From contig JABSSW010000058.1 in the NCBI GenBank assembly GCA_018902385.1, positions 245,730 to 273,822 on the forward strand: a stretch of DNA of 28,093 nt. Direction: 5' to 3'. The position numbers were made by a program, and so were the translations under genes. Shown here in pieces: positions 1 to 21,842 of this stretch (positions are counted from its first letter, which is position 1; the number at the start of each line of letters is the position of its first letter). Below the pieces are notes generated by a model. The model was not told the DNA's origin and searched no databases. It saw only the letters and a list, made by a program, of their open reading frames with translations. This stretch comes from Physcia stellaris (lineage: Eukaryota > Ascomycota > Lecanoromycetes > Caliciales > Physciaceae).

Positions 1-343
1 TTGAAACGAAACAAACGATATATCGAAATTTTATTATCGTTATATGTTTCGAGTCGTTTTTTTGCGATAATAAAATATTACGACGTCAATTAAATACATT
101 TTATCGACGATTTAGTTTGAAAATTTTCAAACGTCGAATTTGAACAATTTGATTGAATATATTGTCATGATGATTGCATTTAAACGATTTGAAAATCAAT
201 TTATCGTAAATCATGTTCAATATGATTTCATGTTTGTTTATTCATGATTTTTTTAGAATTATCGAATGATTATTCAGATCGATGATTAACAAAAAAACGA
301 TCAATTCGAAATGCAATTTTATCGTTAATTTAAAATATATGAT

Positions 344-484
344 ATGAATTATTGATGAAATTTGACGATCGTCGAATTCAATCAATGATTTTGATTTCAA
401 TAAAAATACGAATTTCATTCAACATGTTGCATACAAATTGCGCGATTTTTTTATCAAATTTAACGCATAATCAATTGCATCAAT
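344..484 (-). pseudogene. Retroviral-type aspartic protease fragment of the left gypsy element
   Basis: The reading frame gives IDAIDYALNLIKK at the start and IEFDDRQISSIIH at the end. These align by eye with the fungal gypsy protease pattern I-D-S-G-A-T-G-Y-A-F and (V/I)-x-D-G-R-x-I-S-S-G. The catalytic Asp survives, while Thr to Ile and Gly to Asp replacements fit ACY to ATY and GGY to GAY changes. One in-frame TGA interrupts it. It sits about 250 bp after the Gag knuckle, where a protease belongs. Confidence 0.6.
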
Positions 485-732
485 GTTTATTAAAATTTTT
501 AATTTATATTTATTATCGTCAACGATAACGTACAATTGATTTACTCAAAATCGTTTGATAAAAAAATCAAACAAATCATCGTTATGAATAAAAAAAAATT
601 TAAACATTCATTAATCGCGTTTTTGATTAATTGTTAATTTTTCGAATCAAAATCATTTGATTCGACGATTAAATTCATGTACGATATTTGCATTTTGTGT
701 CAATGACGTTTTTAATGTTTGTAATCGTTCGA

Positions 733-1776
733 ACATTTTTTTCAAACGTGATTCAATTCGTCACATATGAAACATTTGTTCGTGACGATCAATTTGTCGA
801 TTATCGAATCATGAAATTTGATTTTCACATTAAAATGAAAATGAATCGTTGATTTCACAAAGAAAACAAATGTAACAAATTTCGTAAACGATATTGAAAT
901 CGAAACGATCGAAATGAATTTGAATTAAAATAATTCAAAACGTTGTTGACGTGTTGTCGTTTTTTTCTTTTTGAAATTCGTTTGTCGATTGTAAATTTGT
1001 TGAAAAATAATTTTGATTTCGTTAAAAGTAATAAATTCACGAAAATACACGTTTATAGTTTTTTTCAAATTTCAAAATATTTTTTTCATTAATTTTTCAA
1101 TTTTGATAATTTCGTTATAATTTGTTGAATTATTGAAACGAAAAAAAATAAAATAAAACGATTGAAAATTTTGAATGTTCATAATCAATATTCGAAATTG
1201 ATTACGCATGTTGCGTTTGAAATCAAAATTATCGTAAATGTTTGACAGAAATTTCAACATCATAAATCAATTTTTGAAATAATTGAAATCGATGTCACGT
1301 ATCGATTGAATATAATCGTCAATTTCGTCGACAATTCAATCAATAACAAAAATAACGACGAACAGATTCGTATTGTAATGATCGTTGTTGATCGTCATTT
1401 TATTATACATTTTCGTTTTTTACACACGTCAAATCGAATTTATTTCATCGATAAACGTGAATGAATTAAAATATTTGACAAAACGATGTTTTTTTGAAAC
1501 GTTGAAAACAAACGCATCGTCGTTATCGTTGTTTTCACGTTTTTTTTCGTTGATCGATAAAGTTTGATATTTCAATTTTAACGCGTCGTATTTGCTTTGA
1601 AAAATGTTATAAATTACATCGTTTTGAATTTTCAATGAATGTTTTTTCGTTAATTCGAAATTAATTTTTGCGAGTTTGTTGATGTTGTTTTGAAATTCAT
1701 TCGCAAATTTCTGATATTGATTAAAAATTTTCAAATAAATGTTTCGATCAGAACGCAAAACATCGAATCTTTGCAA
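733..1776 (-). pseudogene. Gag of Ty3/gypsy element (degenerate)
   Basis: Retrotransposon capsid protein remnant in several frames. The segment 1429-1776 begins with a charged coiled-coil-like stretch and ends in a motif resembling the L-P-D-P-P-x-F-T-D-G of ascomycete Gag proteins, with prolines turned to Ser/Phe (CCN to TCN/TTN). The segment 1072-1263 carries FLSNIYDNFDFKRN and matches the capsid helix pattern (L..IY.dp..r..Ar..f..L, then sF..F...F). The segment 855-1040 is a basic linker. At 733-774 lies a zinc knuckle C-x2-C-x4-H-x4-C (CFICDELNHV, an in-frame TGA, then KKC). The TGA is what a TGG codon would become after a CpC mutation on the opposite strand. Family assignment is from pattern recognition, not a search. 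Confidence 0.7.
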
Positions 1777-2469
1777 AAATTTGACGACATAATTTTCGAT
1801 TTATCATTTCAATTGATTGACGTTGATAACGTTCAAAAAATGAATAATATCGTCATTTTTCATCGATACATTTATACGCGAAAAAACGAATTTGCGACGT
1901 TTGAATTGAATAACAATTTTTTTTTCATTGATGTTGTCGATTATTTGTTTCAAATGACGATCGATTTCGACACGAAAAATTTCAAATGACGAAATTTCAA
2001 ATGAAAAAAAAATTATGATGATTTCGAATCATAACGAAAAATAAAAAACTGACGATTGTAAATAGAAAGAATGAATTGTTTGTTGTTCGTTTTATCGTTT
2101 TTTATCGTCGAAAATTTCGTCGTTGTTTCGTCAAAAAAATTTTCAAATCGTTTGTTTGATCAGCAAAACTTTTCGTCGTTTATTTCGTCAAAAAAGTTTG
2201 ATCGATTTGAAATTTTATTTTTGAACGTTCGCGTATTTCGACGAACGATAAAAATGAAAATTTATTGTAATATCATGAATCGTGTTTGAATAAACGTATT
2301 ATTAATTAATTAAACGAAAACAATAAATTTGCAAAAACAAATAAATACAAAAAAATGAAATTGCAAACAATGTGCGAACGTCAAATTTCAAATTACGTTA
2401 ATTTCGTCAAAAAATTAAAACATAATTCGATTCAGACATATTTGTTTAATTATTTATTATATCAATTAT
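1777..2469. other. AT-rich stretch between two retroelement remnants
   Basis: No gene or domain recognised. Open frames on the plus strand here (about 2071-2289 and 2355-2567) have no recognisable pattern and look like by-products of extreme AT content. The stretch must contain the junction between the left gypsy element and the copia integrase, because copia reverse transcriptase, expected immediately after position 2470 on the minus strand, is not visible. Confidence 0.4.
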
Positions 2470-3410
2470 TTATTTGTCAAATTTATTTGTCAAACATGTT
2501 CGTAACACATCGAATTCGATATCAATTTTTGATGTTGATTTGTGATTATAAATATCGAAATTTTTGACGCGTTCGATTTTTTGACTAATCGATATATAAA
2601 TTCGATAAATGATGTCATTGTCATATTCGATGAAATTTTTTTTTTCGACATTCGATTTCAAATGATTTTTGATTTTTTTGTTGATAACGACGTAAACAAT
2701 TGATTCGAATAAATACATGTTCGTCAATTTCGAAAATTGTTCGTAAATATTTTCGAACGATAATTGATTTTTCAAATACGAAATTGAACATCGATTTTTG
2801 ATATACGTCATTGCATATGTGATGTTTGATTACAAAAAATTCGATATGTTTTTCGTCAATAACGTTGTTTTGATTATGATGATAAAAATGCGTTAATATA
2901 TTTCGATTACATCATTGACGTTTTGAATATTTGTTGAAATTGAATTGAATTTCATGTTTTGATTGTCAAAATAATTGATTGATTGCGTATTGCGAAATTC
3001 GTTGTTATAATTTGTACGTACGATTTTGACGTCAATATCGAATTAACGTTTGATTCAATTGATGTATTTAATAAAACATTGTAATCATTCGTGTTTGTTT
3101 TTGACGATGTATATTTTCGTTCAACGTGATTTGTCATCGATGATATTGATGTAATAACGTTCATTTTCAAAATTTTCGATCGTTATTGATATTAAATCAA
3201 TGTAAATAATATGAAACGTTTTTTCGACATGATGAATATTTTTTCTATTCGATTTTTTTTTTATTTTGATTAGTTTACAAATATCGCAATGATTATTTTT
3301 GCAATCGTTTTGATAAAAATGATTCAATTTTTTTAAATATTGACGTAATAAAAAAAAATTTATGTAATTCAAATTTCGATGTCATACGATAAACGACAAT
3401 GATAATGTTA
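2470..3410 (-). mobile_element. Ty1/copia integrase remnant, truncated element
   Basis: Two segments of a copia-type integrase on the minus strand. The segment 3121-3410 shows the pre-integrase/zinc-binding region (HR..LNY, then C-x2-C in CDICKLIK) and the start of the catalytic core (IYIDLIS, then a FiDDxSR-like IIDDKSR). The segment 2470-2811 matches the integrase C-terminus: KNRCS (K-N-R-x-P), a T-P-F-E-like block turned to LSFENIYEQ, a rvFGs-like LFESIVYV, then FIEYD and IYRIYIS (fvGY..iYRi). The core between them is out of frame. Reverse transcriptase and RNase H, which follow integrase in copia, are absent, so the element is truncated, plausibly by the left gypsy element inserting into it. 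Confidence 0.72.
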
Positions 3411-3886
3411 TTGACAATGCAATCATTTAATGTGATTGCAATTTTAAAACGTATAATTTGTTGTTTTGCAAAAAAACATATTCGATTGATTTGTTTTGAT
3501 ATTTGAAAATGTGATTTTCAATATTTCAATAAACGTTTTGTTTTTCGAATGTTGATATTGACAACAAATTTGTTGACGAATTTGACATGTAAAAAATTAA
3601 CAAATCAATAAATTGATTATTTGCATTGTTGTAAAAAAAAAACGAACAATAATTTGATTATTTCTTTTTTTTTAACAATGAAACGAATTTTGTTTGCAAT
3701 TACAACATGTTCGATGTAAAATATGAAAAAATGTATCAAATTTCGATTTTTGCACACGTGAATGTTGACGTTCGAATTTGTGTATTACAATATATCGTTA
3801 ATTGAATGATTTTAACAAAATTTGTTTTCAAAATTCAATCAACGACGTTGATTGTTATTGTAAATTTTGAATTTTTTTCAAAATTT
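3411..3886. other. AT-rich stretch between copia remnant and LTR
   Basis: This stretch probably holds the decayed Gag and pre-integrase part of the copia remnant, upstream of 3410 on the minus strand. I could not read a convincing protein in it. Poly-A and poly-T runs are common, and the CpC/CpT-depleted composition continues unchanged. Confidence 0.4.
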
Positions 3887-4227
3887 TGTCGTATAAATAA
3901 TTAAACATATAAAACTCGTATTAGAAATAATATAGTTTAATGAATTATTGATATCAGAAATATATAATTTGAAATGTAATATATTGATTTATTAATCGTT
4001 ACAAAACAGATTACGTTTTGCAATTGTTTTTTATTCACATTTTATTTATTCAATCGTACGAATTCGATCGATTTCGATTGACAATATAAATTTGTTGAAT
4101 TTATCGTTGATCGAATTGTAAAATGATTGAAATTGATTTTTTTCGAAATTATTCGAATTTCGATAATCGAATTGTTTAACGAAATGCGAATCGTATTTTC
4201 GAAAATTTTGAATTTTTATTTTTTACA
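3887..4227 (-). repeat. 3' LTR of the gypsy element
   Basis: About 341 bp, directly repeated at 10201-10542. From 3917 to 4227 it aligns without gaps to 10232-10542 at a constant offset of 6315, with 11 mismatches by my count, all C/T or G/A transitions. The outer ~30 bp at 3887-3916 align with at least one indel, so that border is approximate. It ends TTTTTTACA on the plus strand, which reads TGTAAAA on the element strand. Confidence 0.9.
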
Positions 4228-4730
4228 TACGTTTTTTTTTAAACATCGAAATTTTTTGAAATCAACATGTTAACAAAAATTTTGACGTATTTTGTTTGTT
4301 TTGACGTGTTTTGTTTGTTTTGATTTTGCATTAATTTGAAAAATCATTATGATCGTGATTTTCGCATTTCGAAATATTTTTGTTCGAATTCAATAATCAA
4401 TTTGCGTTAAAAATTTGAAAAAACATTTTTTTGAATGATTCAAAAATACATAATTTGATGAATCAATTGTTTGTTGCTTTTATGATCGAATGTTTAATTT
4501 CGTATTATTCACAATTTTCAATATGATGATTGACAACTGATTTGTTGACAAAAAATTCTGAATTCGAACATTTTTTTATTTTTTTATTTTTTTATTTCGA
4601 ATATTAATATCGATATCATGAAAAAATGTAACGCGATAAACGTTCATTAATCGCGATCGCATTGATATTCAAATTTTCGAATTTTTTTTTATTTCATTTC
4701 ACATTTTTTATTTAACGATTTATCGTTCGA

Positions 4731-4943
4731 TCAAATCGAACAACAATTTTTGAAAATATTTTTGACACAATTCAGTTTTTCATGCGTCGTAAATTTTAAA
4801 CAATAAATAACACATAGAATTTTTGAAAACGAAAATGTGTTAATATGCAATAAGTATTTCAATTCATTTTTTTCGTGATTTTCGATGATTTGTTTTTTTA
4901 TTGACATCAAATTTTTTGAATTTTCGTTGTGAAATTGTCGCAA
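4731..4943 (-). pseudogene. Possible chromodomain at the pol C-terminus
   Basis: A 70-codon frame 650 bp after the integrase and 500 bp before the 3' LTR. The stretch KKQIIENHEKNELKYLLHI resembles the start of a chromovirus chromodomain (e.Il..R...gkl.YlVkWkGy). The aromatic-cage Trp residues are not visible and the rest does not align well. Position is the main support. If real, the element is a chromovirus, the gypsy clade common in fungi. Confidence 0.35.
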
Positions 4944-5548
4944 AATTTTTCGAAAATGTTTAACAAACGATGTAAATTTTCAAATCGCGTTTTTATAGTT
5001 TTTTCATTTTATCAACTAATAAAAATCGAATTCGTTGTAAAATTTGTTTGAAATTTCATTTGTTTTGAAAATTTTGTTGTTTTTAATGATTTCGATTTCA
5101 TAAAACTTTTTCGTAATTTACATTTTTATGTTTTCGTCGAATTCAATATTTTCAACTTGATATGAAAATTCAAAAAAATATAACGTATGTTTTTTTTTTT
5201 AACATTGAATTTTTTTAGAAAAAAAACGTGAAAAACGTCGTGAATGCGTCAGCGTTTGAATAAATTTAAACGATAAATTTGATTTTTTATAATTTTTAAA
5301 ATTTGAAATGATTCAAAAAATTTTCATTTCAATTTTTTGTTTCGTTTAATTTTGATGTTTTTATCGTTCAAATTCACGTAATTTTCGACGTTGTATGACA
5401 TTGATTTCGTACGTTCGTTTTTGTACATCGTTTGTTGTTGTTGTGTCACGAATAAATTGTTTTTCAATATTCGAAATAGTTTAATTAAATGTTCAACGTG
5501 TTTTTTTGCGAATTTGAATTTAGTTTTTTTGTTTCATATTTTTTCCAA

Positions 5549-6325
5549 AAACATGCGAAACGAATATTCAAACATGATTTCGAACGAAAAAATGTTTGTG
5601 AATACGTGTTTGTTGTTGTTGTAAACGAATTCGATTATAAACAACAATTTTATTCAATTATTTTGTTCGAAATTGACGAAAACGCGAAAAAATTGTTTCA
5701 TAACGTTGTTCATTCGTTCGATTTGTTTATCGATTTGAAAATGAAAAACGATTGACAATTTACGTTTGATTTTCAAGACGTAACACAACGCATCGTTGTA
5801 TTTGAATGTGAAAATGAAATTTCTATCGATAACGATTGACGAAAAAAAATCGTGAAATCGAATGATTTCGCGAAATAAAATTTCGATCAAATTTTTTGCG
5901 AAAATCGTTTTAATCATTGATATGTAATAAATCATTTTCGTTAAACGATTCACAATTACTAAAATCGAATCGTAAATCGTTTTATTTCACGTTTTATTTG
6001 AAAAAAGTTCTGTCACGAAATTCATGAAAAAATCAATTCATTTAAATTCAGAAATCGAAAAAAAAAAAAACTCGTCGTATGATTTGTGTCGTGCAATTTT
6101 GTTTCGTTTGTAAACGACGCATGTTTCATAATGTTTTTTGATTTGTTGTCGCATTTCAAAAATTTCGATAAAATTTTGATTCGATCAATAATATTTTCGA
6201 CGTATCAATTTTAACGTTCGTTCGATGTCGAAATGATCAACGAACGAATTATCGTGATTGACACGAATAACGTTTTCACGCAAATTTTCTGAAATGTAAA
6301 CGACGTCGTCGTAATACAAAAATTC
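5549..6325 (-). pseudogene. Integrase of the gypsy element (H2C2 finger and catalytic core)
   Basis: Bases 6325-6071 read EFLYYDDVVYIS, then VNHDNSFVDHFDIERTLKLI, then RRKYY, a TGA, and later HYETCVVYKRNKIARHK. This is the H-H-C-C finger of gypsy integrases (rvnHDnplaGHfGierTl.lirrkyyWP..., C..C.rnK); the second Cys has become Tyr. The core continues at about 5970 with DSILVIVNRLTKMIYYI, then SSIVIDRNFIF (second catalytic Asp kept) and FHFQIDKQIERMN (hPQtDGQtERvN, catalytic Glu kept). After 5654 it continues LLFIIEFVYNNNKH to FRMF. Replacements such as Pro to Phe, Thr to Ile and Gly to Lys/Asp are those produced by CpC/CpT and GpG/ApG transitions. Confidence 0.9.
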
Positions 6326-6587
6326 ATTTTTGTGTTGTCAATGATTTGTTTCTATTTTCGAAATAATCAATTTTCGACATATTTCAGAAACGAATTGATT
6401 TTTATCGATCAAATTCCGAACGAAATTCAACAATGAAAATGTTGATTCGTCGTTATATGTCGTTTTTTTTCGTAAAACAATTTGTATTCGAATTTTATGC
6501 ATTGCGCATTCAAATACAATCGTTGATTTTAACACAAGAATTTTTCATTTTATGAATGTCACGTTTGATTTTTGTTCAATCGAATGT

Positions 6588-6705
6588 TTTGAATTTTTTG
6601 AATTTTTTGAATCGAATGTTTTCGAAACAACGCTGATTGAAATTCGATTTCGTTTTGAATTTTTTGAATCAAATGTTTTTGAAACAATGCTGATTAATTC
6701 GATAT
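6588..6705 (-). repeat. Two-copy 57-bp tandem duplication inside gypsy pol
   Basis: The plus strand repeats the block starting GAATGTTTTCGAAACAACGC at about 6613 and again near 6670 (AAATGTTTTTGAAACAATGC), 57 bp apart with only transition differences. In the minus-strand frame this is a 19-residue repeat sharing VSKTFDSKNSK. It lies between RNase H and the integrase zinc finger. Confidence 0.7.
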
Positions 6706-7204
6706 TTTTTGAATTATTTAAATGCAATCAACGTTTCATGTTATGTATCGCATTCATGAATCGTTTCATGACATGCATCGCATTTATGATTTTGATCGCA
6801 TTTATTCGCATTTTTTCGAAACGTTTCGAATTTGCAATTAATAATTTTTGCAATTGTTTCAAAATTTGACAATTGTTTTCGACGTTTTTCTCAATAATCA
6901 TCATGTAATCAAATCGTTTTGAAAATTCGTTAACAGAATTTTTGTTATCGAAACGATAATCGATTAAAAAATTATATCGATTCAGTTTTTGAATTCATCG
7001 AATTTGACGTGACGACAATTTAATTGTGATTATAAATTGTTTCAAATTGCGATAATCAATAAAAACAAAAATTTGTTTTTTTGCGTTTTCGAAATAATGT
7101 TTTCATTGTTTGAACGAAATCACAATAATCAACAATTTCTTGTCATGAATTTCGTAATTGTATTCGATCGAAATTATTTTGCGTGAAAAATACGCAACAA
7201 AATG

Positions 7205-7474
7205 TCAATGATTTTCGTCGTTTTGTTGACATAAAATGATTTCGAAAATTTTGTCGAATACGTCGATTTCGATTCGAATAACACGTTCGAAATCGAAATG
7301 ACGTAAAATTGATGTTTCGATAAATGTTTTGCGAAATCGTTTGAAAATTTTCAACGTTTCACTGATCAAAAAAATGTGAATATTCGAAAATTTGTTGCGA
7401 TTTCGATTTTGATTTCGTTTGCGTTTACGAATATTTTTTCGTAATTTTTGCGATTTTTTTAACATAACGATCAA
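7205..7474 (-). pseudogene. RNase H region of the gypsy element
   Basis: An 89-codon open frame. Its second half, FRKTFIETSILRHFDFERVIR then EIDVFDKIFEIILCQ, follows the Ty3/gypsy RT-RNase H pattern F..tA.iL.hFD...pi.vEtDASd.aiGavLsQ. The catalytic first Asp is retained within E-I-D-V-F-D, while Ala/Ser/Gly positions are altered. It lies about 100 bp downstream of the RT thumb, consistent with one polyprotein. Confidence 0.75.
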
Positions 7475-7579
7475 AAATTCAACAATTTTATTGAAATGTT
7501 TAATGAATCGTCGATAAAAATTAGCGATGTCGAGAAATTGTATAATGTCGAAAACGTTGCGAAATACAAATCATTGCTG

Positions 7580-8300
7580 AATAATTTCGATTTTCTTGTT
7601 TTGCATTCGTATTTTTTTGAATGAAATAACGAATTCAAAAAAATTTATTTCGTCAACGAATCATTTGCATTTCTCAAAAACAATATATAATTTATTTTTT
7701 TTAAAAACGATCAAAAATTCATTTGATATCGTCGATATGAATTTCGACGTTCATCGAATAAATTATTATATCGTTTAAATATATTATGACGTTAATATCG
7801 AAACGAATCGTCAAAATTCGATTAATAAAATCTTGAAACGTCGTCGAAACGTTAATGAAATCGAAAAAAAATACGTTATATTCGAAATGATCATATCGAA
7901 TACGAAAAATTGTTTTTCATTCGTTTTTATACTTGATACGCAATCGATGATAAACAACAATTAAATCGATGTTAATATATTTGACGATTTTGTTAAATTT
8001 ATTTAAATTTTCATCGATTAACGATAAAAATATCTATTTTTTATCGTGAAAACATTAAAATTTCTGTAATTCACACATAGACGTAAATTATCGTTTTTTT
8101 TTTTTACGAACAAAATGAACGCTTTTGCAAAAATTGTGAAAATCGAATGAAATCGTTAATTAAATGTTTTTCGATATAAACACGTAATATTCGAAATTCA
8201 TTTTCAAATAAAAAATAAATTGATTCATGCGACGATTTTTTGTTTTTTTTAAATCAATAATATGATCGTCTGAATCATGATTCGATAATTCGTAAATTTT
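7580..8300 (-). pseudogene. Reverse transcriptase of the gypsy element (frameshifted)
   Basis: The N-terminus at about 8160-8300 reads YELSNHDSDDHIIDL, matching the P.H...DH.IdL entry motif of Ty3/gypsy RT. After a frame change near 8155, bases 8119-8054 give AKAFILFVKKKNDNLRLCVNYR, whose core VKKK-D/N-x-LRLCV-D/N-YR is the best preserved RT block. At about 7725-7740 there is HIDD, in place of the catalytic Y-x-D-D. From 7700 to 7580 VFKKNKLYIVFEKCK, then FFEFVIS, matches the thumb/connection region (L.k..L....kKCeF...v.FLG..iS). The change of the second catalytic-box residue, plus stops and frameshifts, makes it non-functional. Confidence 0.85.
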
Positions 8301-9129
8301 ATTTTCGTTATCGAATTCTTCATACGTTTTCAGAATATCGAAAAACGTGATTTTGATATCGAATTTTTTTTTCATTTTAATCAAAACAGATTTTATTTGA
8401 ATTCGTTTTGAAACGTGCATTTTATGCATGTCGAATTGTTTGTCAATATACATTCGTACGAACATGAAATACGTTTCAATTTCGTTATCGATGACGTTTA
8501 TAATCAATTATTTTGATTCGATGTTCTCGATACGATTCGTCGTGAAAATGAAATGTTTTTTTTTACAACGTCAAATTTTGATATTGTCGTCGTTTCAATT
8601 CATTTTGATTTTCGAAAACTGTATTCAAAACATGTTTAACGTTAAATTTCAATTCAAATTCACGATCAAAAACGATTTTTCGAAAAAGCGATTGATTTTT
8701 TTGACGTTTGACATTTCGAATTGTACGAAATAAACGTTATATGTTTTCAAACGATGATTGTCAATTGTTATTGCATCACAATTTAAAATTTCGAAACGAC
8801 GAAAATCGAATTTTTCGTATAAACATGATTTATCAAATTAATTTTCGTTTTTGTATCGAATATTGTTTTCGATTCGTTTCAAATCTGATTTTTTGATTTG
8901 TATGTTAATTTTGATTTTAACGCATTTACGAATCACAAATTTTTTAAATTTTTTGCGTCGTTTTTTTTTTGTTAACATGATTTTTGTTCATGTCTGAAAA
9001 AAACGACGTATCGAAATCAAAATTCGAAAAATTTTTTTTTAACGACTTGAACGAAAATCATCAAATCGATTAGTTTTTTGATTATTCAAAAATTTGATCA
9101 GCGAAAATAATTTTGTTTTTTTTGTTTGT

Positions 9130-9675
9130 GCAAATTTCGATTTGATGATTTGATTTGTCACAATTTATACAATTATTTTTGTTTTGAATTTTTTTGAATT
9201 CGTTAACGAATCAACGATACATTCGAATATTTTTCGATTTGATTGATTCGTGATTCGAATTGATTTTGTTAATATTTTTGATTTTTTTATTTTTAAATTT
9301 CGCAATTTTGAACTTTTCGTTTTCGTTTTCAGAATTGTCAATATTGAACGAAATTTTACGTTTTTTGAATTTTTTGAATTTTTTTTTCAGAATTTGAACG
9401 TTTTTTATACGTTTGAATCGTTCAAACAACTTCGTTTTTGTGAAAATTTTCTTTTTCTTAAAAAGCATGCAACGAAATTTCAAACGTAATTCGTCACGAA
9501 AATCGTTGAATTTTATTGTTTTCGTGAATTTGAATTCGAATTTTAATTCAACAAACATATTTATTCGTTCGACATTGTAATTTTTAATCGATTGATTGTG
9601 ATTTTGTTTGTATTTGCGATATTTTTTCAAAAAATTCTGTTGCAACGTGATTGTTCGCTCGATGTCGTTTTTCAA
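9130..9675 (-). pseudogene. Gag of the complete gypsy element, with CCHC zinc knuckle
   Basis: A lysine-rich Gag remnant of 154 codons open from 9675 to 9211. The early part (KQNHNQSIKNY, then NDFRDELRLKF) follows the Ty3/gypsy Gag pattern of an H-x-x-Q-S-V-x-x-y segment followed by an L-rich helix. Beyond the open frame, at 9130-9171, a C-x2-C-x4-H-x4-C knuckle is intact (CINCDKSNHQIEIC), the nucleic-acid-binding motif of nucleocapsid. The strong Lys excess (AAA codons) fits ApG/GpG to ApA changes. It sits 0.5 kb inside the 5' LTR, as expected. Confidence 0.72.
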
Positions 9676-10200
9676 AAAAAATTTGAATTCGATTCAAATG
9701 TATTGTTTGTCTGAATGAAAATCGATTTTTGCGTTTCAAAACTTGTTCGTATTGTTATTTGATTTAAAATAAATATCAACATATGCGATTTTGATTAAAT
9801 TCGAAAATTGAATTATGTAATTCACGTTGTTTTGCGTGAATTGATTTTTCATTTGTTTGCAATATTTTTTTCACTTTTTGTAATTTTTTTTTTCATATTG
9901 ATTCGATGTCGTTTCGATGATTTTCATGACGAAAAATTTTCAAACAAAATCAAAAACAAAAATAAATGAAATCGAAACAAATGAAATAATGATTGCAAAT
10001 TTCGAACGTTCGACAATTCGAATTTTGAATTTGATTTTTTTTTTGTGATTTTTTTCGATTTGTTATTTGTAATAAATCAATCAGAAAAATAAATTAACAT
10101 TTTCGACAAATTCAAAAAACAAATCATTATCAGAATTCGACATGATGTATGCGAAACAACAAAACTGTGTTTTGTTAAATATATACGAATGATATCATTC

Positions 10201-10542
10201 TGAAATATGATAACGATTAAAATGTAAAATTCGTATTAAAAATAATATAATTTAATGAATTATTGACATCAAAAATGTATAATTTGAAATGTAATATATT
10301 GATTTATTAATCGTTACAAAACAGATTACGTTTTGCAATTGCTTTTTATTCACATTTTATTTATTCAATCGTACGAATTCGATCGATTTCGATTGACAAT
10401 ATGAATTTGTTGAATTTATCGTTGATCGAATTGTAAAATGATTGAAATTGATTTTTTTCGAAATCATTCGAATTTCGATAATCGAATTGTTTGACGAAAT
10501 GCGAATCGCATTTTCGAAAATTCTGAATTTTTATTTTTTACA
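10201..10542 (-). repeat. 5' LTR of the gypsy element
   Basis: About 342 bp, partner of 3887-4227. In element orientation it starts TGTAAAA at 10542 and ends at 10201. Just inside, at 10187-10200, lies a perfect 14-bp palindrome (GAATGATATCATTC), where a primer-binding site would be expected. No tRNA-complementary TGG start remains, as expected after loss of GpG. Confidence 0.9.
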
Positions 10543-11960
10543 AAATATGTTTTTATCAATTCATTTTTTGAAAACGTTTTTTGAATGATTATAATAACAT
10601 TTTTCAAAATCATATTTGATGAAATCGTTGTTTATGTATTTTTGACTGATACAAAAAAAATCGATGTATTCAAATTTTGATGTATTAAAACGAATACGTT
10701 TAAATATTTCGAAACGATCAACGATTCATGCAATTGAATTTGATTTTGCTATCGTATCGATGATGATTTTAACGAAATTCAAAAAAAAATTTCGATTTCG
10801 ATTAAATTTGTGTTTTTGAAAATTCATTCGTCACGTTGACGAATTACGAAATAATTGAAATGAATTAATTTGTGCATTTTGAATAACAAAATATTTTAAC
10901 AAAATACGTCGACAAATGAATTTCGAATCAACGTTTTCGATAATTAATTGATTATGTAATGATTCAACGATTTTAATATAAAATTCGACGTTCGTTAAAA
11001 TAACAAATCGATCAATAAAATCGAAAATGATATCGACGAAAAAAACGAAAATATTTTTTTTAAAACGTTTTGTTATTTTTGTTCAATAAATCAATGATGT
11101 TGAATTTGTTATAACAATAATAAAAAAACGATGATTGACGTTCATTGCATTGAACAAATAATAAAAATTTTATTCAAATTTCGTTCGTGTTTTTCGACGA
11201 CGATAATGAAATTCGTGAATTTGATTTTCGTTTTTGCATCGATGAAATTTCAATCGATATTTTTGTTGTATAAAAATTCGACGATAAATATTGATTTTAT
11301 TGATAAATTGATTGTTTATTTAACATGATTAATTCAAAAATCGTTTTTGACGTCGATTTTTCAATTGAAATATTGTTTTGATTTTGAAATGAAAACGACA
11401 AAATTGTGAATGATGTTTGACGTAATCATTGTGATATTTGAATTTGAAAATTTGAATCGTATAAATGAAAAAAAAAAAAAAAAAACGTATGTGATTCGTG
11501 AAATCGTGTAAAACGTGTAAATTTCATGTCGTATTTTTTTTTTCATTTCGTAACAAATGAATTCGAAACATCAATTCGAAACAATGACGAATTCATTGAA
11601 TCATCGAATCGTGTATATGAAATTTCGTGTTTTTTAAAAACGTTTTTATCGAAATCGAATGATCGATCGTGCGTTCGAATTTGACGTTCGTTTAAACGAT
11701 AAATGACATTTTCATCGATCGACGTCGATGTTAATTTTTTGAATTTTTGAAAAATTAAATAACGATCGTTAAAATAAACAATATGCATTTTATTAACGAC
11801 ATTAAATGACGATAAATTCGTTGTGAATTCAATTTGATATTTTCGAATTTAATCGTTGTTTAATCAATCAAAGATTTTTCGATCGATGCATGAAATCAAC
11901 GTTTGAATGTTGTAAAATAATATAAATCGATTCGAATGATATTTGACAAACATTGTCGAA
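10543..11960. other. AT-rich stretch between gypsy LTR and the gene island
   Basis: The composition is the same CpC/CpT-depleted one. A minus-strand frame at 11543-11788 contains NVIYRLNERQIRTHDRSFD, which faintly recalls the copia block YR.w.p....i.trDV.FdE, but too weakly to call. A 19-base poly-A run lies at about 11467-11485. No intact gene is seen. Confidence 0.4.
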
Positions 11961-12170
11961 CTCATAATTTGTTACAAATATGTAAAGTGCAACGTGTTTA
12001 TTATTCATGATAATACTATTTATCGTACATGTGATGAATGTGAATTATTGTACAGAGTTTGCACGCTAGTCTATAACAGAATAACGTCTTGACATTGCCT
12101 TTGGTGGTGAGTTTACTCCAACAGGTGCCGCACTCAGTCTTCCAATGTCGTACTGATCAGAAGATGACGG

Positions 12171-12816
12171 TTACCTTTTGAAGCACGCACGCTGAGAACG
12201 ATACGAGGTTTCAGATGCCTCGTCCGCAGCTGGCATGGTGGAAGCATCAATCAGCTTTTTGCGCTTTCCACTGATGGGTTGCTGTGAAGTTTCCTGTTCG
12301 CATACTCTCTTGAATAGCCAGTTCCGGCAAGGCTCGCAGTCGCAGAGGAGTTTCATACTCTGCCGTGTCACTCCTTTGCATTGGAAGTCGACCGGTGGTG
12401 GAACCAGCATGAAGTCGCAGGATGACCCATCATCGTACGCACGAGCCACTTACTTTGCAGCGCTGTCCGTGTGGAAGCTCTATGATCGACTATGTAAGAG
12501 CTGTATGGACACTTGATTAAACTAAAGTCATGTACAGTGGGCTGAGTGGCTGTACTCTCATCGAAAATCTGACTGGAGCTACCGGTAAGAATGTCGTATA
12601 CATCCTCTTCGGTCTTGTTCGCAATAGTTCGCAGAACAACAAAAGCTGGAAGCCATTCGTGCCGCCCTGTTTCAATTTTCGTCAACTGCCCCTGCATATG
12701 TTCTCAGCATGGATAGCTGCTCGTTTCAGTAACATTGAGTGCCACCTAATGCTCAACTTACCCCTTGTATCATCGTTAATGTCAACGCCTCCTGCGTCAG
12801 CTGTACAGCTGCATTG
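12171..12816 (-). CDS. Hypothetical multi-exon gene (tentative model)
   Basis: Not recognised. A plausible minus-strand model has three exons. Exon A is about 12816-12762, its 5' end unresolved, reading CSCTADAGGVDINDDTR. Intron 12761-12692 has a GTAAGT donor and CAG acceptor. Exon B, 12691-12454, contains TKIETGRHEWLPAFVVLRTI. The second intron has a GTAAGT donor at 12453. Acceptor choice decides the tail. AAAG at 12374 gives a Cys-rich end (LLCDCEPCRNWLFKRVCEQ) and stop at 12171. A more canonical CAG at 12360 gives a different frame stopping at 12247. Phases fit in both. No start codon is visible in exon A, so either an upstream exon is missing or translation starts at the ATG at 12697. It is divergent from the secreted-protein gene at 12904. 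Confidence 0.4.
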
Positions 12817-12903
12817 CTCTTATGTAAATGTTAAGGTTGGTTCATGCTATTCTCAACTTATCTACCAATAGTTTTACATTTCAGATTGTGATCTCTATCC
12901 GCC

Positions 12904-13199
12904 ATGCTCTCTTTTCACCGCCCTATCCTCGTCGCATTGGTTCTTTGGATCAGTTCCACGTCAACGCTTCCGATTGATGGAAATAATCCGCCTCAGAACA
13001 GCGATCTCGGCATGGCGGCCGCCGACGGACTCGCTGTAGGGCCGGAAGCTGGTCATCTTTCATCTCCGACGATGTGGGAATCGCCTCCAAAATCAGGTAG
13101 GAGTATCTATTGTCAGACAATATCCATATGCTAAGACAGAGAGCAGAGCCCCGAGACTCGGCCATAGAGCGTTCTGAAATGTTACCAGTCTCTCATTAA
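12904..13199 (+). CDS. Small secreted protein, hypothetical
   Basis: It begins MLSFHRPILVALVLWISS, a typical signal peptide with a hydrophobic core and a likely cut near residue 20-22, followed by a Pro/Gly/Asp-rich acidic region. Unspliced it would stop at 13132-13134 (76 aa). A donor (CAG|GTAGGA at 13097) with a CTAAG branch-like site and acceptor GCAG at 13146 gives a 50-bp intron and an 81-aa product ending at 13199; an acceptor at 13139 (43-bp intron) is also in frame. The mature part has no obvious cysteines or known domain. A GTAAAT...TTTCAG pair at 12824-12884 could be a 5' UTR intron. Small size and a secretion signal make it effector-like, but no function can be assigned. Confidence 0.5.
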
Positions 13200-15023
13200 A
13201 CCTTTCAATCGCACAGCCAGATAAGGGACGTCGACTCTATGACTAAGCACGTGGCGACTGTTCTGTTGGCCTTCGGCCTTTGAAGATTGATATCGACAGC
13301 TAGGAACAATGTATGGCATACATTCAAGTGTACGATCTTACTGCGAGTTTCATGGGTATTTCTATGATGTTAGCACTTCTGGACAGAATAGATCCTCTTA
13401 GCCATCATAATCCACTCCGGTGCGACCGTTCTAATGAGTACGAGATCCCCCATCTATCTTGACATTTGCCGTGATGTGCCCTAGGGGATAGCGAACGTGC
13501 ACTTGAAATCTGGCTTTTATCACACATGTTGCATCATTGATTTGGGTGGTTACGTCTGGCGGTTCTGACCCTGGTGTTTTCCCGCTGTTCTGGTTTGACG
13601 TCTCTGCATTGCAGTATTACTCCTTGAGGATTTGCAGATGATGGATCTCTGCATCGTCTGACCTTTTCAATCACTCTTTTTCCCCATGACGTAAAGCAAT
13701 AAACAAGGCGTCTAATTGTAACCTCAAGCCATTCTTTGTCGTAGCACAAATGGAATTCGTCGCTCTCTGGTCGAAGTGATGCTACATGCGGCACGTCCCT
13801 AAGCACATATTTCAAACCGTTTTACAGCTGCATAGCAGACTTAGAGACCAGCAAATGCACAGCCTGTGAATGTGCCCGACCTACAACGTTAATGCAGACC
13901 GACGTATGAAAAATTTGTGGTCATTTTATTGCCACGATAGCGTTCGCTCCTGCTGAACCACAACATATGCCCTTCCTCTCGGCCAGGGCGTTCTGTACGT
14001 CACGTTGTGACGTTAGCGAAACACTACCCTGCAATCATGCCTTGACTTACCGACACAGAGGTACTACACGCTTGGCAAATTCCTTGTTTTCATCTGCTCG
14101 TTCCTCTTTTGGTGGGATCTTAGCACTGGAGCTGTTGTATCCGTACTCAGTAACGTATCACAACTTACATAAAAATCATTGAAGAACAGAAAGGTTGGAA
14201 GTTTGATCATACGTTAGCACAGGTTCCGGAACTTCTATTCGCTTGGCCGAATCGAATTTGGAACCAGAATCTTTACAGCAATCGAAGGTATCAGAGTAGT
14301 GTTTGGTATTAGACGTTTTATCCCTGAGGAAGAGTGTCACCGCTCGCCAGGGCTGGATATATTCCTGTAAGGCTGGAGACTTTTATCTGCGGAATGTTAG
14401 AGAGATGAGATGTTGTGGATATGCTCTTAATCTGTTCACGAACTCCCATACGCGTTGACTCGAATTTTAAGAATGTATAGAAAATTAGGCATGCCTTCAG
14501 ATCATGAGATCGTTGATGCTGCAAAGTAATGTTCTTACGAGGATTTGACTTTCAATGTGTTTAAAGATAATTGCCAGACAAGGGGAGAATCAGATTTCAT
14601 TCGACATGAAAGTCCAATCAGAAGATTGTGTTTCTCGACAAGTAATCGAATACAAATTCAATACACAAAGCTGCCAGCGACCATCTCGCAACGGCAGTAA
14701 ATGTTGTATTTCTGATGCTCTGGGTTCCAACTTTTTCAATAGAAAGTCTTCAGAGTCCACGACGTGGGAATGGTTGAGTATGTTGTATGACCATAGACCT
14801 AATGTACACGAATAATATTATCTGGCCCGAGCATCTTCAGGACAAATTCAGGATTTCCAACATTATGTAATAACCAGATAAAGTAGCAACGATGTCTACA
14901 GTGTGGAGTTACGCATACTGGTCATTCTTTCTCATAGAATTCCCATTCACATTCTGGGGTATCTTTATTTGTATCGTACCCGAAAGATCGGGGAACGCGT
15001 TGAATCTAGAGCGACCATTAGAA
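13200..15023. other. Intergenic region with a repeat relic
   Basis: Ordinary base composition. Apart from the diverged repeat at 14233-14350, I see no supported gene. Open frames at 13534-13815 (-) and 13967-14182 (+) lack good ATG starts or recognisable content. Confidence 0.4.
14233..14350. repeat. Diverged dispersed repeat, copy 1
   Basis: About 115 bp similar to 18215-18350 in the same orientation. Shared blocks include AATC.TTACA, GAAGGT.TCAGAGTAGT and TGCCAGGGC-like (here CGCCAGGGC). On the plus strand it reads as protein (GTRIFTAIEGIRVVF), partly matched in copy 2 (SGIRILTISEGLRVVF). On the minus strand both copies end in a similar peptide plus stop (ALASGDTLPQG* here, ALARGGTLFQG* in copy 2). 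Which strand, if any, was coding is unclear. It may be a relic of a transposable element or LTR. Confidence 0.6.
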
Positions 15024-16351
15024 CTATGGGCTTCCTACAGAGTGTAGTGCACGTTTGCTCACGTTAGGGTTTTTCAGTCGCTGTAAAGCACAAGGCTGGC
15101 AGTGGCGGTATGAATCTCGGAACCAATAGTCCCTAGCATTCTGCATTTTGCTCCACCTAAGTCTCCAATTAGCATGATTGGTGTATGCGGTGAAAACGTC
15201 GGCAGGGCTTACGATCCGATATCGATAACTGCCGTCAGCCTTCGTTTGTCCCAGAAGACGTAGCCCCAGTCTCGGAGCCCTTTGTTCGTATGTGACCCAG
15301 GCGCACATCCCTCCGAAGCACAGTGCCACCCCATGCTCGGTTCTTCCACACTATCTTGATAAGAAGACGAGTAATAATACCCGTTCCTTTCCGGCCAGCC
15401 GAGAAAGGACGGGTCACGGCCTAGCAGACCGAATGTGTCCTGGATACCTCCTGAATACTCCTGGCTGTTGTTGAAAACCATTTCCGCCCGGCGAAGCGGA
15501 TCAGCAGTGAAAAGCTTTCTAAGGAAGGGAAGTCCTCGGGATACCAAGGACTCCAGATACATCTCATCAGAAAGTTTGCCGTCGGTACCGAACCAGTCTT
15601 CGTCATTACCCCGTGAGGCTTGGGGCGTACCGTGACCCATTCCCGGAATATCGCCATTGACGAAATCATCTTCGACCAGGTCGAAGATTCGCCACAGCCG
15701 ACGCCTTAAATAATCTGTTATGCATGCAATCTCCTCAACCTCGTCGTAATCGTAACTTTCAATGAAGTCGGCGCACGGGCGAAGTTCTTCCCTGTACCAT
15801 CCATCACCATTACCGGATCTTGGTGGGAATAGGGAATGGAACGTGTCAAACCGACACAAAGCTCTGGCAATTCTCAGTTCCTCAACCACTGACAGTTCCG
15901 AAAAGACCAGATCACCATCAAGATGCAGGTTCATCATTTCGCCGAGGCGAGCGAGAATGGCAAGGCTTTCTTTAGCGAAGTCTGCGACAAACCATTCTAG
16001 ATGCGCATTCAGTCTTATCATAGGCATGGACAGATCTGGTGGGAGTTGCGGGATATTGAAGCCTTGGTCGTCCAATGTGTCGGTGAAGACCTTCACATCC
16101 TCTCGGGATTGTGGTGTAGGCAATTTTGAGGCTCTGACCGTAGCCCATACATTAGTGGGTACAAGTGAATGGCGGACAGCGAGAGCCGTCAATTGATAGT
16201 CACGTCTTGATCTGAAGACTTGAAAGTAGCGAGGAGAGGCACGAATTAGTGAATAAAGGGTAGTGGCAGAGGATATGTAGCACATAATCAGAGATTGGAC
16301 TTCTGGCTCGAGGCTTTCAAATGGAGACAGATTGTCCATTTTTTGCGGCAA
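15024..16351 (-). CDS. F-box-like protein, two exons, 423 aa
   Basis: Exon 1 is 16351-15213 and exon 2 is 15156-15024. The 56-bp intron 15157-15212 has a GTAAGC donor, a TGCTAAT branch site and a TTAG acceptor; coding length is 1272 bp, a multiple of three, with the frame kept across the junction. The N-terminus (residues ~8-50: SLEPEVQSLIMCYISS, then TLYSLIRASPRYF) resembles the fungal F-box pattern lP.Ei...Il..i.....L..li.aSp. F-box proteins bind Skp1 and bring substrates to SCF ubiquitin ligases. The rest is acidic and probably helical, with a C-terminal GYVFWDKRRL seen in related fungal proteins. Without the intron the protein would end after VIDIGS. The start could also be the Met at 16339. 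F-box assignment is from pattern only. Confidence 0.7.
15157..15212 (-). other. Intron of the F-box-like gene
   Basis: 56 bp, GTAAGC donor, TGCTAAT branch-like site 12 bases before the TTAG acceptor. Splicing joins two open frames in phase and extends the protein by 44 residues. Confidence 0.65.
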
Positions 16352-17434
16352 TCCGGAATCCTGAATCGCAAGGGCGCGAGCTTGCAGTGAGATGGATTTA
16401 TGTCAAGATGAAGTAGAGGGATTAGGGTCATTTCCTCTAAGCGCTTTAGGTCGGATAGCCAAGACCGCGCTAGCCGGCTAAACCGTTCGTGTAACGCGTG
16501 ACGCCAAGAAGTCACCTATCAGATTGACTCATCTGCCGCTGCCATGACACTCTACAACAAACCCTCTCCCTCGATCTAAAGTCCTGATACCAGCATGCCC
16601 TAGCCAATGGATCGGACGGCTCAAACGCATTTTCAGAATTGGCGTGGGACCCGCCTTTGATGCTACGACTAACCGTTAGCGGCCTAAATTAGTTCGGACG
16701 ACAATGCAAGACCCGCGAATCAACATCCGAGTGCAATTGATCGCGGCGGCTACTGAGCCTGAACTACTGCACTATCAGAAACCATTACGACTGTTTCCAA
16801 TTTGACGGGCCTACCTGCCATGGATATCGTATTGACTCGCCTTCAACTTTCGCTCTTCTTTTCTCGCACCCAGCTAATGCAAGCTTTTAGACTTGTTCGA
16901 TCTATAACGCAGGTTTTCATTCAGACTCATGCTTTTTCGTTTCATGCTATGGATTGTTGCTACTGCGTCTGTCGCTGCTTATGTCTGGCGTAACGCCCGG
17001 TTTCGCTTAGCTTCTCTGTCAAGTAAATTGTTGGTCAGGAATTATTGATTTCTTGAGGCATCTTTGATGGCTATGCTTAGGCCATTTGAAAGCCAGGATG
17101 TGATTTGAATGAAAAGACTCCTATATAAGCTCCCCAGGTTCTTATAGAACGACATTATTAGACACTAAACATCTGACCTGCCCACTATATATCTATCGTT
17201 CAAGATACACCGATCCGTGGATACTCCGAAGCTTCCAAGAAAAAATCATTCCTGCTATACAACATTGTCAACATCAAATCCTAGTACGATCACTAGTAGT
17301 AATCCACCCTCCATTCTTGAGGACGAGACTCTATAGCAACATATACAGTTACCACACAGTCTTGTCGCTCCATTGCCCCTGGGGCTTGCACTTTTCATCC
17401 CAACACTTACCCTCGGCAGTCATCGGGAAGAGAG
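16352..17434. other. Intergenic region, divergent promoters
   Basis: Lies between the F-box-like gene (-) and the gene at 17435 (+), so it should hold both promoters. I see a TATA-like site at 17122. A 63-codon plus-strand frame at 16802-16993 has no recognisable content. Confidence 0.4.
17122..17129 (+). promoter_or_regulatory. TATA-like box
   Basis: TATATAAG, 306 bp upstream of the ATG at 17435. The distance is long for a fungal core promoter and would imply a 5' UTR of roughly 250 bp. It is the clearest TATA element in this intergenic region. Confidence 0.35.
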
Positions 17435-18602
17435 ATGTCGCGACGTGGGGCGCAGGGTACGTATTTACTTCTTGAAAGTATATCGGCAACGTTCGTATCA
17501 CAGACATCATATGCATTACTGTTCGACATACGACCGATGCTTAGCCAACATGTGAGTAATAGAACTGACATCATGCACAGAAATCGTTCGCTTTGATACC
17601 GCCAACATTGAGCCAGAAAGTGAGATCTTATATAGGCAGCGACGTGCGGCAGCCTACCCAAACATTTCACCACATGACCTGTCAATGGACGCACATATAG
17701 AGCGCAGAATGTATAAGGATGAACAACGCAGGAATACAGTCGCATATAATGCCTACATTTCTGCTAAATTACGAGCAGAGAAAGAAGTGGAAGATAAAGG
17801 GATGTTGCAGAAGGACTACTATCAGCATCATAGTGATAGAATACTACCTACTAGGCATAAAGAGCTGGCCCCAATGGCTAGAACTTGGTCCGATGCCGAA
17901 TTCAGGTTGGCAAAACTCGATACTGTACCTTGAACTTCTGCTAATGTAAAGAGCAGCCATGCTCGAGCGCGCGCAACGGCAATTAGCCAGAACCCTATGA
18001 TGTACCCAACTCTGAAATCTCAAAAGGAACACCATGAAGACGTTCGCAAACACTACCGCAATTCAGACGGTGCAGAAGAGCGCGAACGAATCCATCTACG
18101 ATTCAGCAGGTAAGCTTGACTTTCCCATGCCCTGGCTTGGCACCCCATTCCAGGAGCCAGCCAAAGGCTATATAAATTTGGTCCCTCTCAAAACACCGAT
18201 CTACACAAATGAAGTATAGATTCTAGAGCCGTTGCCCGCTGGGTCGACTCTGGTATTAGAATCCTTACAATATCTGAAGGTCTCAGAGTAGTATTCAGAT
18301 TAGATCATTCACCCTTGGAATAGGGTGCCACCCCTTGCCAGGGCATGAGATACGTCTCGAGGCACTTTATCTTTCGGTGGGCATATACTGACTCTTACAG
18401 CGTTACTCCGCCTTCCTCGAACCGGGACCTCTATGATCATGAGCCGCCAAGAAGTTACCTACCTACTCACGAGCCGTATCCGCCAAACCATCCCCCGGCA
18501 GGCTATTACTCTACCACTCATGGCGATTCGTCCTACTCTACTGGCGAGGGCTGGACAGATGTTAGAAGATCTACTGCTACTAAAGGGCGTAGGAAAATCT
18601 GA
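17435..18602 (+). CDS. Hypothetical four-exon gene with charged N-half and Pro/Tyr-rich tail
   Basis: Not recognised. Proposed exons are 17435-17456, 17581-17905, 17957-18109 and 18401-18602, total 702 bp (233 aa), all junctions in phase. Intron 1 (124 bp) is GTACGT...ACTGAC...GCACAG. Intron 2 (51 bp) has a weak GTTGGC donor with GCTAAT branch and GCAG acceptor; it removes an in-frame TGA at 17931. Intron 3 (291 bp) is GTAAGC...ACTGAC...TTACAG. The protein starts MSRRGAQEIVRFDTANIEP. It is Lys/Glu/Arg-rich and helix-like through exons 2-3. It ends in a disordered tail (DLYDHEPPRSYLPTHEPYPP, then PPAGYYSTT). If intron 2 is not spliced, the product stops at 17933 with 124 aa, and the rest is a second gene or pseudogenic. 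Intron 3 carries repeat copy 2. Confidence 0.5.
18215..18350. repeat. Diverged dispersed repeat, copy 2, inside an intron
   Basis: Partner of 14233-14350. In the plus-strand frame it reads RAVARWVDSGIRILTISEG then LRVVFRL, followed by a TAG and a one-base length difference relative to copy 1, so this copy is not a continuous coding sequence. It lies within intron 3 of the 17435-18602 gene and may explain that intron's unusual length. Confidence 0.6.
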
Positions 18603-19484
18603 AATGACATGCTTAAACGAAACGAACCAACGATAGCTCGACTTTGGAAACACAGTGCATGTAGGTTTACATTCATATGCCATTGTTATTCCGAAATCCA
18701 AAGTCGGGTATCCTTTGTTCTGGTTCAGTAAGTGGGCGACATGGCTGCACAAACCCCCGAGGAGAAGATGGCTTGACTGAATTAGGTGTGGCTGCTGATG
18801 GTAGTCGCAGTGAGCTAGATGTATTATGATTGAGATCGTCTGCAGTATAGAAGCCTCTGGTGCTTCACTGGAGTTCTGGTGGAGTGTTAGGTCGTATGTA
18901 AAACATAGAGTTATATGTAGATTTTATCACGTTTTGTTCATGCGTGATTGGCTTTCTAACACTCTGATACAATCCTGAAAGCTAGCTCCCATAATAGCAA
19001 AAGCTAAAAGAGCCTAATTATTGGCTGAATTGTTTCGTAAGGGGTGAATAAATGCGTTGAGATGGTGAGATATCCTTGATCTTTATGGGCTATGGTGGAC
19101 TATCTCTTACTTCCCAGAATCCGAGGTTAATTTAGTGATTTTCAGCAGTCACATCAGAGAAGGACATATTCAATCTGTAAAAGATCTATCCAGAACCCTC
19201 ACAGGGCATCGGGCGAAGTCGTTTCTTGAAATTCCGTTACAGCGGCAGTACTTCCTCTGAGGATCACAGAGACATGGTACGGGATAGTGCTCATGCAAGA
19301 GACATTACGTGGCTTGGACATGCTCGACGTCAGGAAAGAATGGAGCCGCTGTTGCTGCAACTCATTGCCAAGTCACCATCCCTCCCCTTGCCCATATATA
19401 TCACTGTAGTTGCAAGATCGTCCAGTGAGCGGTATTTCGCCAAAAGATTGCGACTTCAGCTACTATGGATGAGGGGAGGAGGTT
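18603..19484. other. Intergenic region
   Basis: No convincing gene. A 123-codon plus-strand frame starts at 19226 and overlaps the next candidate; it lacks recognisable motifs, though an exon of the 19485 gene in this interval is possible. A CATATATATC stretch at about 19393 could be a weak TATA element. Confidence 0.35.
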
Positions 19485-19751
19485 ATGACTTCAGAAATGG
19501 CTGCCACGAACGCGTTTTCATCCGCTCAGAGCCAACGTCTATCAACGCTACCTTGCCAAGTGACATCGTATCGGCCAAGTCGAAGGACAGCATGTAATGC
19601 GCGCTCTGAGCACATGATTGAGTATGATCGAAAAGGCCTTGTGAGCTACATATACTTGATCAAGAAATTCACTGATCTCAATGATGCGAGAGATCTAAAA
19701 TTTACCGATTCCATCCCGTTCATGCTTCGCAATCTTCAAGAGAGGGGCTAA
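19485..19751 (+). CDS. Hypothetical ORF, 88 aa
   Basis: Starts MTSEMAATNAFSSAQSQ. The second half (EYDRKGLVSYIYLIKKFTDL, then FTDSIPFMLRNLQERG) has the look of a natural folded or helical protein, while the first half is Ser/Arg-rich. It is not recognised as a family. It could be the 3' exon of a gene beginning upstream near 19226. No introns were resolved. Confidence 0.3.
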   Translation: MTSEMAATNAFSSAQSQRLSTLPCQVTSYRPSRRTACNARSEHMIEYDRKGLVSYIYLIKKFTDLNDARDLKFTDSIPFMLRNLQERG

Positions 19752-20082
19752 CTTATGTCCTTGGATTGACAAAATGCTGGGAAAGTCGTACTCGGTAGGG
19801 CTGTTATGCCTTCTTTGCGGCGAATTTACTCTCTTAACAACGGTTCATTCAACAGCGCTTTTTCTGTCCACTTGAGTTTCGTGATCTCCAAAACCATCTT
19901 ATCGCTCTCCTTCATGTTCTCCTCCATGTCGATCTCGACACTATCCAATGACGCATCAATCTCTTATTGACAAATCGTGCGGGTCAATGTCAAATAAACC
20001 CTAGCCCAACTTTGTTTACGGCTCCTATGTCTATATTTGAACAGAACCCCCAGCATGGCTGACCAGGTGACAGTTGACGTTA
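19752..20082. other. Intergenic region, convergent
   Basis: Nothing recognised. It separates the plus-strand ORF at 19485 from the minus-strand secreted gene ending at 20083, so it would hold both 3' ends. Confidence 0.4.
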
Positions 20083-20571: not shown

Positions 20572-20760
20572 TGTGTTAAGCATGAAAGAGAAAAGGGAAG
20601 ATGACATCGGTAGAAACGAGCCGTTGCATAACGGCGCATGACGGATGCCGTACAACAATGACATTATTATTCGCGCATTGCGCCAGGCTTCGGTTGGCTG
20701 GCTGGAAAGCACGAGCGCTAGAGGCGTTTGTCAATACTTCTCCCGGCGCCACATGATGAC

Positions 20761-20766
20761 TTTATA
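20761..20766 (-). promoter_or_regulatory. TATA-like box of the 20571 gene
   Basis: TATAAA on the minus strand, 190 bp upstream of the chosen ATG at 20571. A core promoter here fits the shorter start and would put the upstream in-frame Met at 20712 very close to the transcription start. Confidence 0.4.
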
Positions 20767-20771
20767 CATAC

Positions 20772-21748: not shown

Positions 21749-21834
21749 TGGTACTAGATTGCCAGCAAGTCTCGTTGCTCGATGAATGCACCTTGCTTTT
21801 TTGCTGAAAATGGCTGATCCTCACCGCGAGAGCC

Positions 21835-21842
21835 TTATATAA
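21835..21842 (-). promoter_or_regulatory. TATA box of the 21748 gene
   Basis: TTATATAA, about 87 bp upstream of the ATG at 21748 on the minus strand, a normal distance for a fungal core promoter with a short 5' UTR. Confidence 0.5.

Follow-up and report, generated by a model that had tools for sequence, protein, structure and literature searches.

The closest described counterpart of the decay reported here is repeat-induced point mutation (RIP), which in its classical, RID-dependent form in Neurospora crassa makes only C:G to T:A changes, acts on both strands, nearly saturates repeats and spares neighbouring genes. RIP has been described as mainly a CpA process. The order of preference is CpA>CpT>CpG>CpC in N. 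crassa, and CpC also comes last in Trichoderma reesei, where CpA and CpG are hit about equally (PMC5496416); from 1,239 surveyed fungal genomes it was concluded that a preference for CpA is common to RIP-like defences (PMC12543289). Other contexts are on record: a CpT component in Botrytis, Sclerotinia and Magnaporthe and a CpG component in Tuber (PMC4352252), CpT as the dominant form in the alignment-based counts of one survey (PMC7882544), CpC to TpT double mutations in Monilinia (PMC8959702), and CpC/GpG depletion in repeats of Stagonospora (S.) nodorum (PMC2621366), in the last two cases beside a classical or dominant CpA to TpA. We analysed a stretch of 28,093 nucleotides (G000:C58:245730-273822; the window) from the 44 Mb, 147-contig assembly of Physcia stellaris, a lichen-forming Lecanoromycete of the order Caliciales. 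In this window, a gene island adjoins an AT-rich flank of decayed retroelements.

Decay in P. stellaris shares the features of classical RIP listed above, and the genome carries RID-family and DIM-2-like genes. Its order of preference, CpC>CpT>>CpA>CpG, is inverted relative to N. crassa and almost absolute. Botrytis, Sclerotinia, Magnaporthe and Tuber also show CpA (according to the table of PMC4352252), whereas in Physcia CpC is the foremost target and CpA is left almost untouched. In the open-access literature searched, within the text available, we found no report of CpC as the leading RIP target. Decay specific for CpC and CpT (together CpY) appears to be a new form of RIP-like mutagenesis. 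We propose, with a probability of roughly 0.8, that the flanks consist of P. stellaris retroelements which an enzyme has inactivated: a RIP-like mutator, directed at repeats, that converts C to T with 5'-CpY specificity.

CpC and CpT are nearly erased beside the gene island

On the two strands of positions 1-11960, the base 3' of C is A 1397 times, G 1422 times, T 110 times and C twice. The corresponding observed/expected ratios are 0.01 for CC, 0.10 for CT, 1.26 for CA and 3.96 for CG, with TA at 0.45. Two hundred mononucleotide shuffles of the same segment gave a mean of 361 CC (minimum 322) and 1096 CT (minimum 1023). An earlier note on this DNA, made from its letters alone, had described a near-absence of CC and CT with CA and CG common, and the ratios bear this out; its hand count for the plus strand of 6541-6840 (18 CA, 17 CG, 2 CT, no CC, and neither GG nor AG) was exact. 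The switch to normal composition lies inside 11901-12100, and the edges are sharp. In 11961-28093, a segment that includes a second decayed end, the ratios are 0.94 for CC, 0.89 for CT and 1.08 for CG. The comparison of island with flank, proposed in the same note, found an island without CpY depletion, and the island is an internal control showing that single-copy DNA is spared. A second CpY-depleted flank, to the right of the island (Table 1), lies beyond the coordinates that the note covered.

An AT-rich flank of decayed retroelements in a genome with RID-type genes would be expected of classical CpA RIP or of CpG methylation decay. The earlier note held that neither fits, and CpA and CpG are indeed the contexts kept in the copy alignments described below; both explanations are contradicted by the context counts, and we regard them as next to impossible. 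Classical indices in the flank are 0.46 for TpA/ApT and 1.31 for (CpA+TpG)/(ApC+GpT), where the quoted RIP thresholds are >0.89 and <1.03. Because both values are opposite to the thresholds, a flank of 24% GC (guanine plus cytosine) is scored as not RIPped, and index-based surveys can therefore miss such genomes. By the classical indices, the lichen fungi Cladonia metacorallifera and Gyalolechia flavorubescens show moderate RIP (PMC7882544), and repeats of another, Endocarpon pusillum, have values of 1.47 and 0.70 (PMC3897900); CpY decay is therefore not general to lichens. In the accessible text of the P. stellaris genome paper, the term “repeat-induced” is absent and “rip” occurs three times (PMC7513301).

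Intact and decayed copies give the direction of change

To give the changes a direction, we used as reference L035, an unmutated gypsy-type copy whose GC content is 51% and whose C dinucleotides are balanced. Copies were matched in a purine/pyrimidine code because the changes are transitions, and all 11 decayed copies matching L035 were counted. Pooled over these copies, C had become T at 4388 of 4488 CpC sites and 4067 of 4684 CpT sites, compared with 330 of 4459 CpA and 149 of 4119 CpG sites. CpA, the preferred target of classical RIP, is thus not preferred here, and alignments of this kind, which the earlier note had named beforehand as the place where its proposal could fail, put the changes at CpC and CpT. 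Across the 11 copies the CpC:CpT hazard ratio was 1.28-2.36.

The cleanest pair, L035 and L052, differed over 3466 bp by 389 C>T, 531 G>A, 1 T>C and 1 T>A. Both strands had thus acquired C:G to T:A transitions, 920 in all, beside 2 other changes, and this near-absence of other changes indicates a process that is fast relative to background mutation. By context, C>T in this pair affected 442 of 444 CpC, 451 of 462 CpT, 26 of 444 CpA and none of 411 CpG sites. The polarised counts support the note's suggestion of a RIP-like machinery, or of another C-to-T mutator, specific for 5'-CpY; strict RIP, premeiotic and triggered by duplication, is an inference, as is the responsible enzyme.

Passive decay would replace the mutator by CpY methylation of repeats, as in methylation induced premeiotically (MIP), followed by slow spontaneous deamination of 5-methylcytosine. 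The genome does hold a DIM-2-like gene (L002), and DIM-2 is credited with methylation at every CpN, most readily at CpT (PMC13297926). However, CpC and not CpT was hit most, slow deamination that went as far as 97-99% of targets would be expected to come with many other mutations, and the 920 to 2 count for L052 argues for active mutation. We consider passive decay improbable. Under the proposed CpY-specific mutagenesis, the mutator would convert C to T at CpC about 1.3-2.4 times as readily as at CpT and would nearly spare CpA and CpG; its trigger would be sequence duplication, probably around sexual reproduction. The P. stellaris culture was raised from ascospores (PMC7513301).

Decay across the genome

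We examined 60 element loci (L005-L064) on 45 contigs, each retrieved because it matched either a decayed query or RVT_1, and hence not a random sample of the genome. At 52 of the 60, CpC makes up no more than about 1.5% of all C. In these 52, CpT still has a share of between 0.1% and 19.5%, and CpC was therefore lost before CpT. Two loci (L040 and L051) are intermediate. The CpY pattern is thus very specific and is spread over at least 45 contigs among the loci examined. In this non-random sample, 52 of the 60 element loci are decayed, as is a ribosomal DNA (rDNA) unit, and the gene island and four methyltransferase loci are normal.

Several observations weigh against a repeat-directed CpY mutator. 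Six of the 60 element loci (L035-L038, L049 and L063) are unmutated, the pooled CpA (7.4%) and CpG (3.6%) changes are above zero, and the evidence comes from one genome only. In addition, while many duplicates are decayed, the matching pair L067 and L068 (5891 bp aligned, 3.9% diverged) is not: C>T changes between them amount to 2.0-3.5% in all four contexts. Since this pair lacks a clear CpY bias, two matching copies escaped the process, or else they arrived too recently for it.

Decayed copies in the window could be aligned to less mutated relatives elsewhere in the genome. Against L067, the copy at 72-1422 had C>T changes at 186 of 198 CpC, 130 of 140 CpT, 55 of 190 CpA and 28 of 152 CpG sites. 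The alignment also holds 72 transversions, and the copy is therefore old; some of its changes at CpA and CpG probably reflect ordinary divergence. A second short stretch, aligned to the same element, had changed at 38 of 38 CpC, 33 of 35 CpT, 6 of 35 CpA and 2 of 20 CpG sites. For the gypsy-type element at 6135-9602, compared with L040, the figures are 96/98 CpC, 252/277 CpT, 52/415 CpA and 24/469 CpG. This element contains an RT_RNaseH_2 match (7205-7567; E 1.7e-4) that is under Pfam's cut-off. Of 344 candidate genome matches to window positions 6000-8000, 40 were scored.

Table 1. Coordinates of features in the window (first six rows) and elsewhere in the P. stellaris assembly. RT, reverse transcriptase.
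Feature	Position	Strand	Remarks
AT-rich flank, decayed retroelements, 24.5% GC	1..11960		CpC/CpT nearly erased on both strands, CpA/CpG kept
Decayed relative of unmutated L067/L068 element, same orientation	72..1422	+	Alignment to L067
Second short stretch related to L067/L068	2270..2508	+	Alignment to L067
Decayed gypsy-type retroelement, less mutated relative L040	6135..9602	-	RT/RNase H remnants on minus strand
Gene island, ordinary composition	12101..25000		GC 0.41-0.56 in sub-windows, all four C dinucleotides common
Right-hand decayed flank, CpY-depleted	25301..28093 (start approximate)		CC 5 in total, CT 1-12 per 300 bp, CA/CG common
L067, unmutated gypsy-type copy	C5:1163001-1169500		Adjoins decayed DNA; 96% identical to L068 over 5891 bp
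L068, unmutated gypsy-type copy	C12:57001-63500		Adjoins decayed DNA; match of L067
L001, short RID/DmtA-type paralogue	G000:C6:790057-794028		MEET in motif VI
Decayed rDNA unit, L066 133-9000	G000:C41:41001-50000		Long extra stretches; sole rDNA unit found in assembly

The process also reaches rDNA repeats besides transposons. In the one rDNA unit found, CC was kept at 3 consensus positions, changed at 28 and lost to gaps at 2, and CU was kept at 20 and changed at 17; CA was kept at 29 and changed at 1, and CG was kept at all 30. This count covers upper-case consensus positions in nine alignment blocks; other blocks, mostly with long variable stretches, were left out. A 5.8S search of the assembly (39 of 2644 candidates scored) reported one match, which lies in this CpC/CpT-decayed unit, and no intact 5.8S was reported among those scored.

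The 3' neighbour, far more than the 5' neighbour, sets the rate

When the changes between L035 and its 11 decayed copies were divided by 5' base, the fraction of C changed to T was 96.6-98.7% at CpC, 83.9-90.1% at CpT, 6.7-9.2% at CpA and 1.1-7.0% at CpG. C>T thus reads the 3' neighbour and, at CpC and CpT, hardly the 5' neighbour, as expected of a methyltransferase-type reader. Two finer features were apparent. Residual CpA changes were commoner in CAC (15.2%) and CAT (9.3%) than in CAA (4.8%) and CAG (3.5%), and CCC was changed in 92.5% of cases compared with 98.3-99.0% for CCA, CCG and CCT. Such a deficit at CCC would be expected because mutation of the middle C shifts the first C into the slower CpT context.

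These data bear on ultraviolet (UV) damage and on deaminases of the APOBEC/AID type. Lichens are exposed to light, and the genome has eight matches to PF00383 (cytidine-deaminase fold). UV damage at dipyrimidines also yields C>T at CpC and CpT, and both UV and APOBEC/AID deaminases act via the 5' neighbour. No such dependence was seen: TCA (84/1184, 7.1%) and TCG (39/1155, 3.4%) were changed no more often than ACA (66/721) and ACG (43/612). Moreover, the gene island is spared, and rDNA is affected and not only retroelement cDNA. We consider either source very improbable, and both contexts were rejected because changes at CpC and CpT hardly depend on the preceding base. A search of the genome with APOBEC_N gave no match, but its controls gave none either, so it is uninformative.

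Candidate methyltransferases

The earlier note had pointed to the genome's methyltransferases of RID and DIM-2 type, and both types are present. A search with PF00145 found three cytosine-methyltransferase genes (four matched pieces), and the catalytic motifs sought are present in the RID-family and DIM-2-like proteins. The DIM-2-like protein, L002, has a C5-methyltransferase domain, DUF7893, a BAH match below cut-off and the canonical ENV motif. L003 is the Lecanoromycete RID orthologue, with LEQT in motif VI. L003 and L001 are both of the RID family, the gene family that accompanies RIP. The mutator is probably a RID-family cytosine methyltransferase, and these two would be the main candidates.

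A DIM-2-dependent pathway could instead supply the CpY mutator, a heterochromatin-linked branch of RIP having become the main one. L002 with its ENV motif would suit this role, as would the CpT preference given for DIM-2 (PMC13297926). The context described for DIM-2 is, however, all CpN, whereas CpA and CpG are nearly spared here, and we think such a pathway unlikely.

L001 resembles Eurotiomycete DmtA (RID/Masc1 family), to which it is near in our tree, with 33-40% identity and EET in motif VI. It differs from DmtA in that L001 and its lichen relatives form a clade of their own (six members, SH-aLRT 100) made up of Heterodermia and metagenome proteins, nearer to Eurotiomycete DmtA than to L003; this was a quick tree in which the deep forks are weak and several rows are long-branched. 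The named relatives of L001 are in Physciaceae, and it may be a long-standing paralogue or have been acquired by transfer. At one position of the target recognition region, 78 other matched RID-family proteins have Thr, but L001 and seven matched relatives have Ala. Five of the seven are in the clade and two outside the tree; 131 of the 220 proteins did not fit the pattern used for matching and are uncounted. Ala likewise occurs there in four proteins of Morchella, Tuber and Choiromyces. The Thr-to-Ala difference may bear on specificity; it is a lead, not proof.

An M.MpeI evolved in the laboratory prefers CC as a result of alterations to the domain that recognises its target (PMC10899764), which illustrates that a C5-methyltransferase can shift to CC. 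Yet that enzyme is bacterial and engineered, it acts by methylation and not by mutation, and it is inactive at CT. As a tentative possibility, which we would not put at even odds, L001 and its relatives may be a second RIP mutator that reads 5'-CpY and has replaced or overrun the CpA activity of RID in the Physciaceae lineage. If so, the target dinucleotide of RIP would be a trait able to evolve and specified by an enzyme of its own. The inverted preference, together with intact and decayed copies of the same elements in one genome, means that what sets the target context of RIP could be addressed by swapping genes.

Protein consequences

CpY mutation has coding effects of its own: TGA takes the place of Trp codons, Pro and Gly disappear, and Gln and Arg codons persist. 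The earlier note had described such replacements, and the stops agree. In 124 genome matches of one reverse transcriptase (RT) query (917 candidates) we counted 400 TGA, 73 TAA and 1 TAG, and only 3 of the 124 matches, including the query's own locus, were free of stops. TGG becomes TGA because of a CpC event on the opposite strand.

With a decayed RT peptide as query, 79 proteins were retrieved, many only 40-60% identical to it. Pro and Gly are both absent from 49 of the 79 and number at most two in 61 of the 79, in a sample biased toward Pro/Gly-poor proteins by a query that itself has no Pro and one Gly. Searches for these decayed RT proteins in viral_contigs and genome_contigs gave no confirmed locus, and the metagenome proteins are therefore used in place of other species' DNA. 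Their composition suggests CpY decay in other fungi.

Pro/Gly-poor decay in proteins from other sources also bears on the notion of an assembly or base-calling artefact. The assembly is Nanopore-based, with Illumina polishing (PMC7513301). Sharp edges and the coexistence of intact and decayed copies likewise argue against an artefact, which we find scarcely credible.

Among the metagenome proteins, P0283, P0286 and P0288-P0296, from JGI and NCBI sources, are RT fragments almost devoid of Pro and Gly. Ten of them were aligned and share 84-92% identity with P0288 and 40-49% with the Physcia query, and the group probably represents another fungus with CpY-type decay. P0242, P0252 and P0260 are RT fragments without Pro or Gly that nonetheless contain Trp, perhaps because metagenome gene callers read new TGA codons as Trp.

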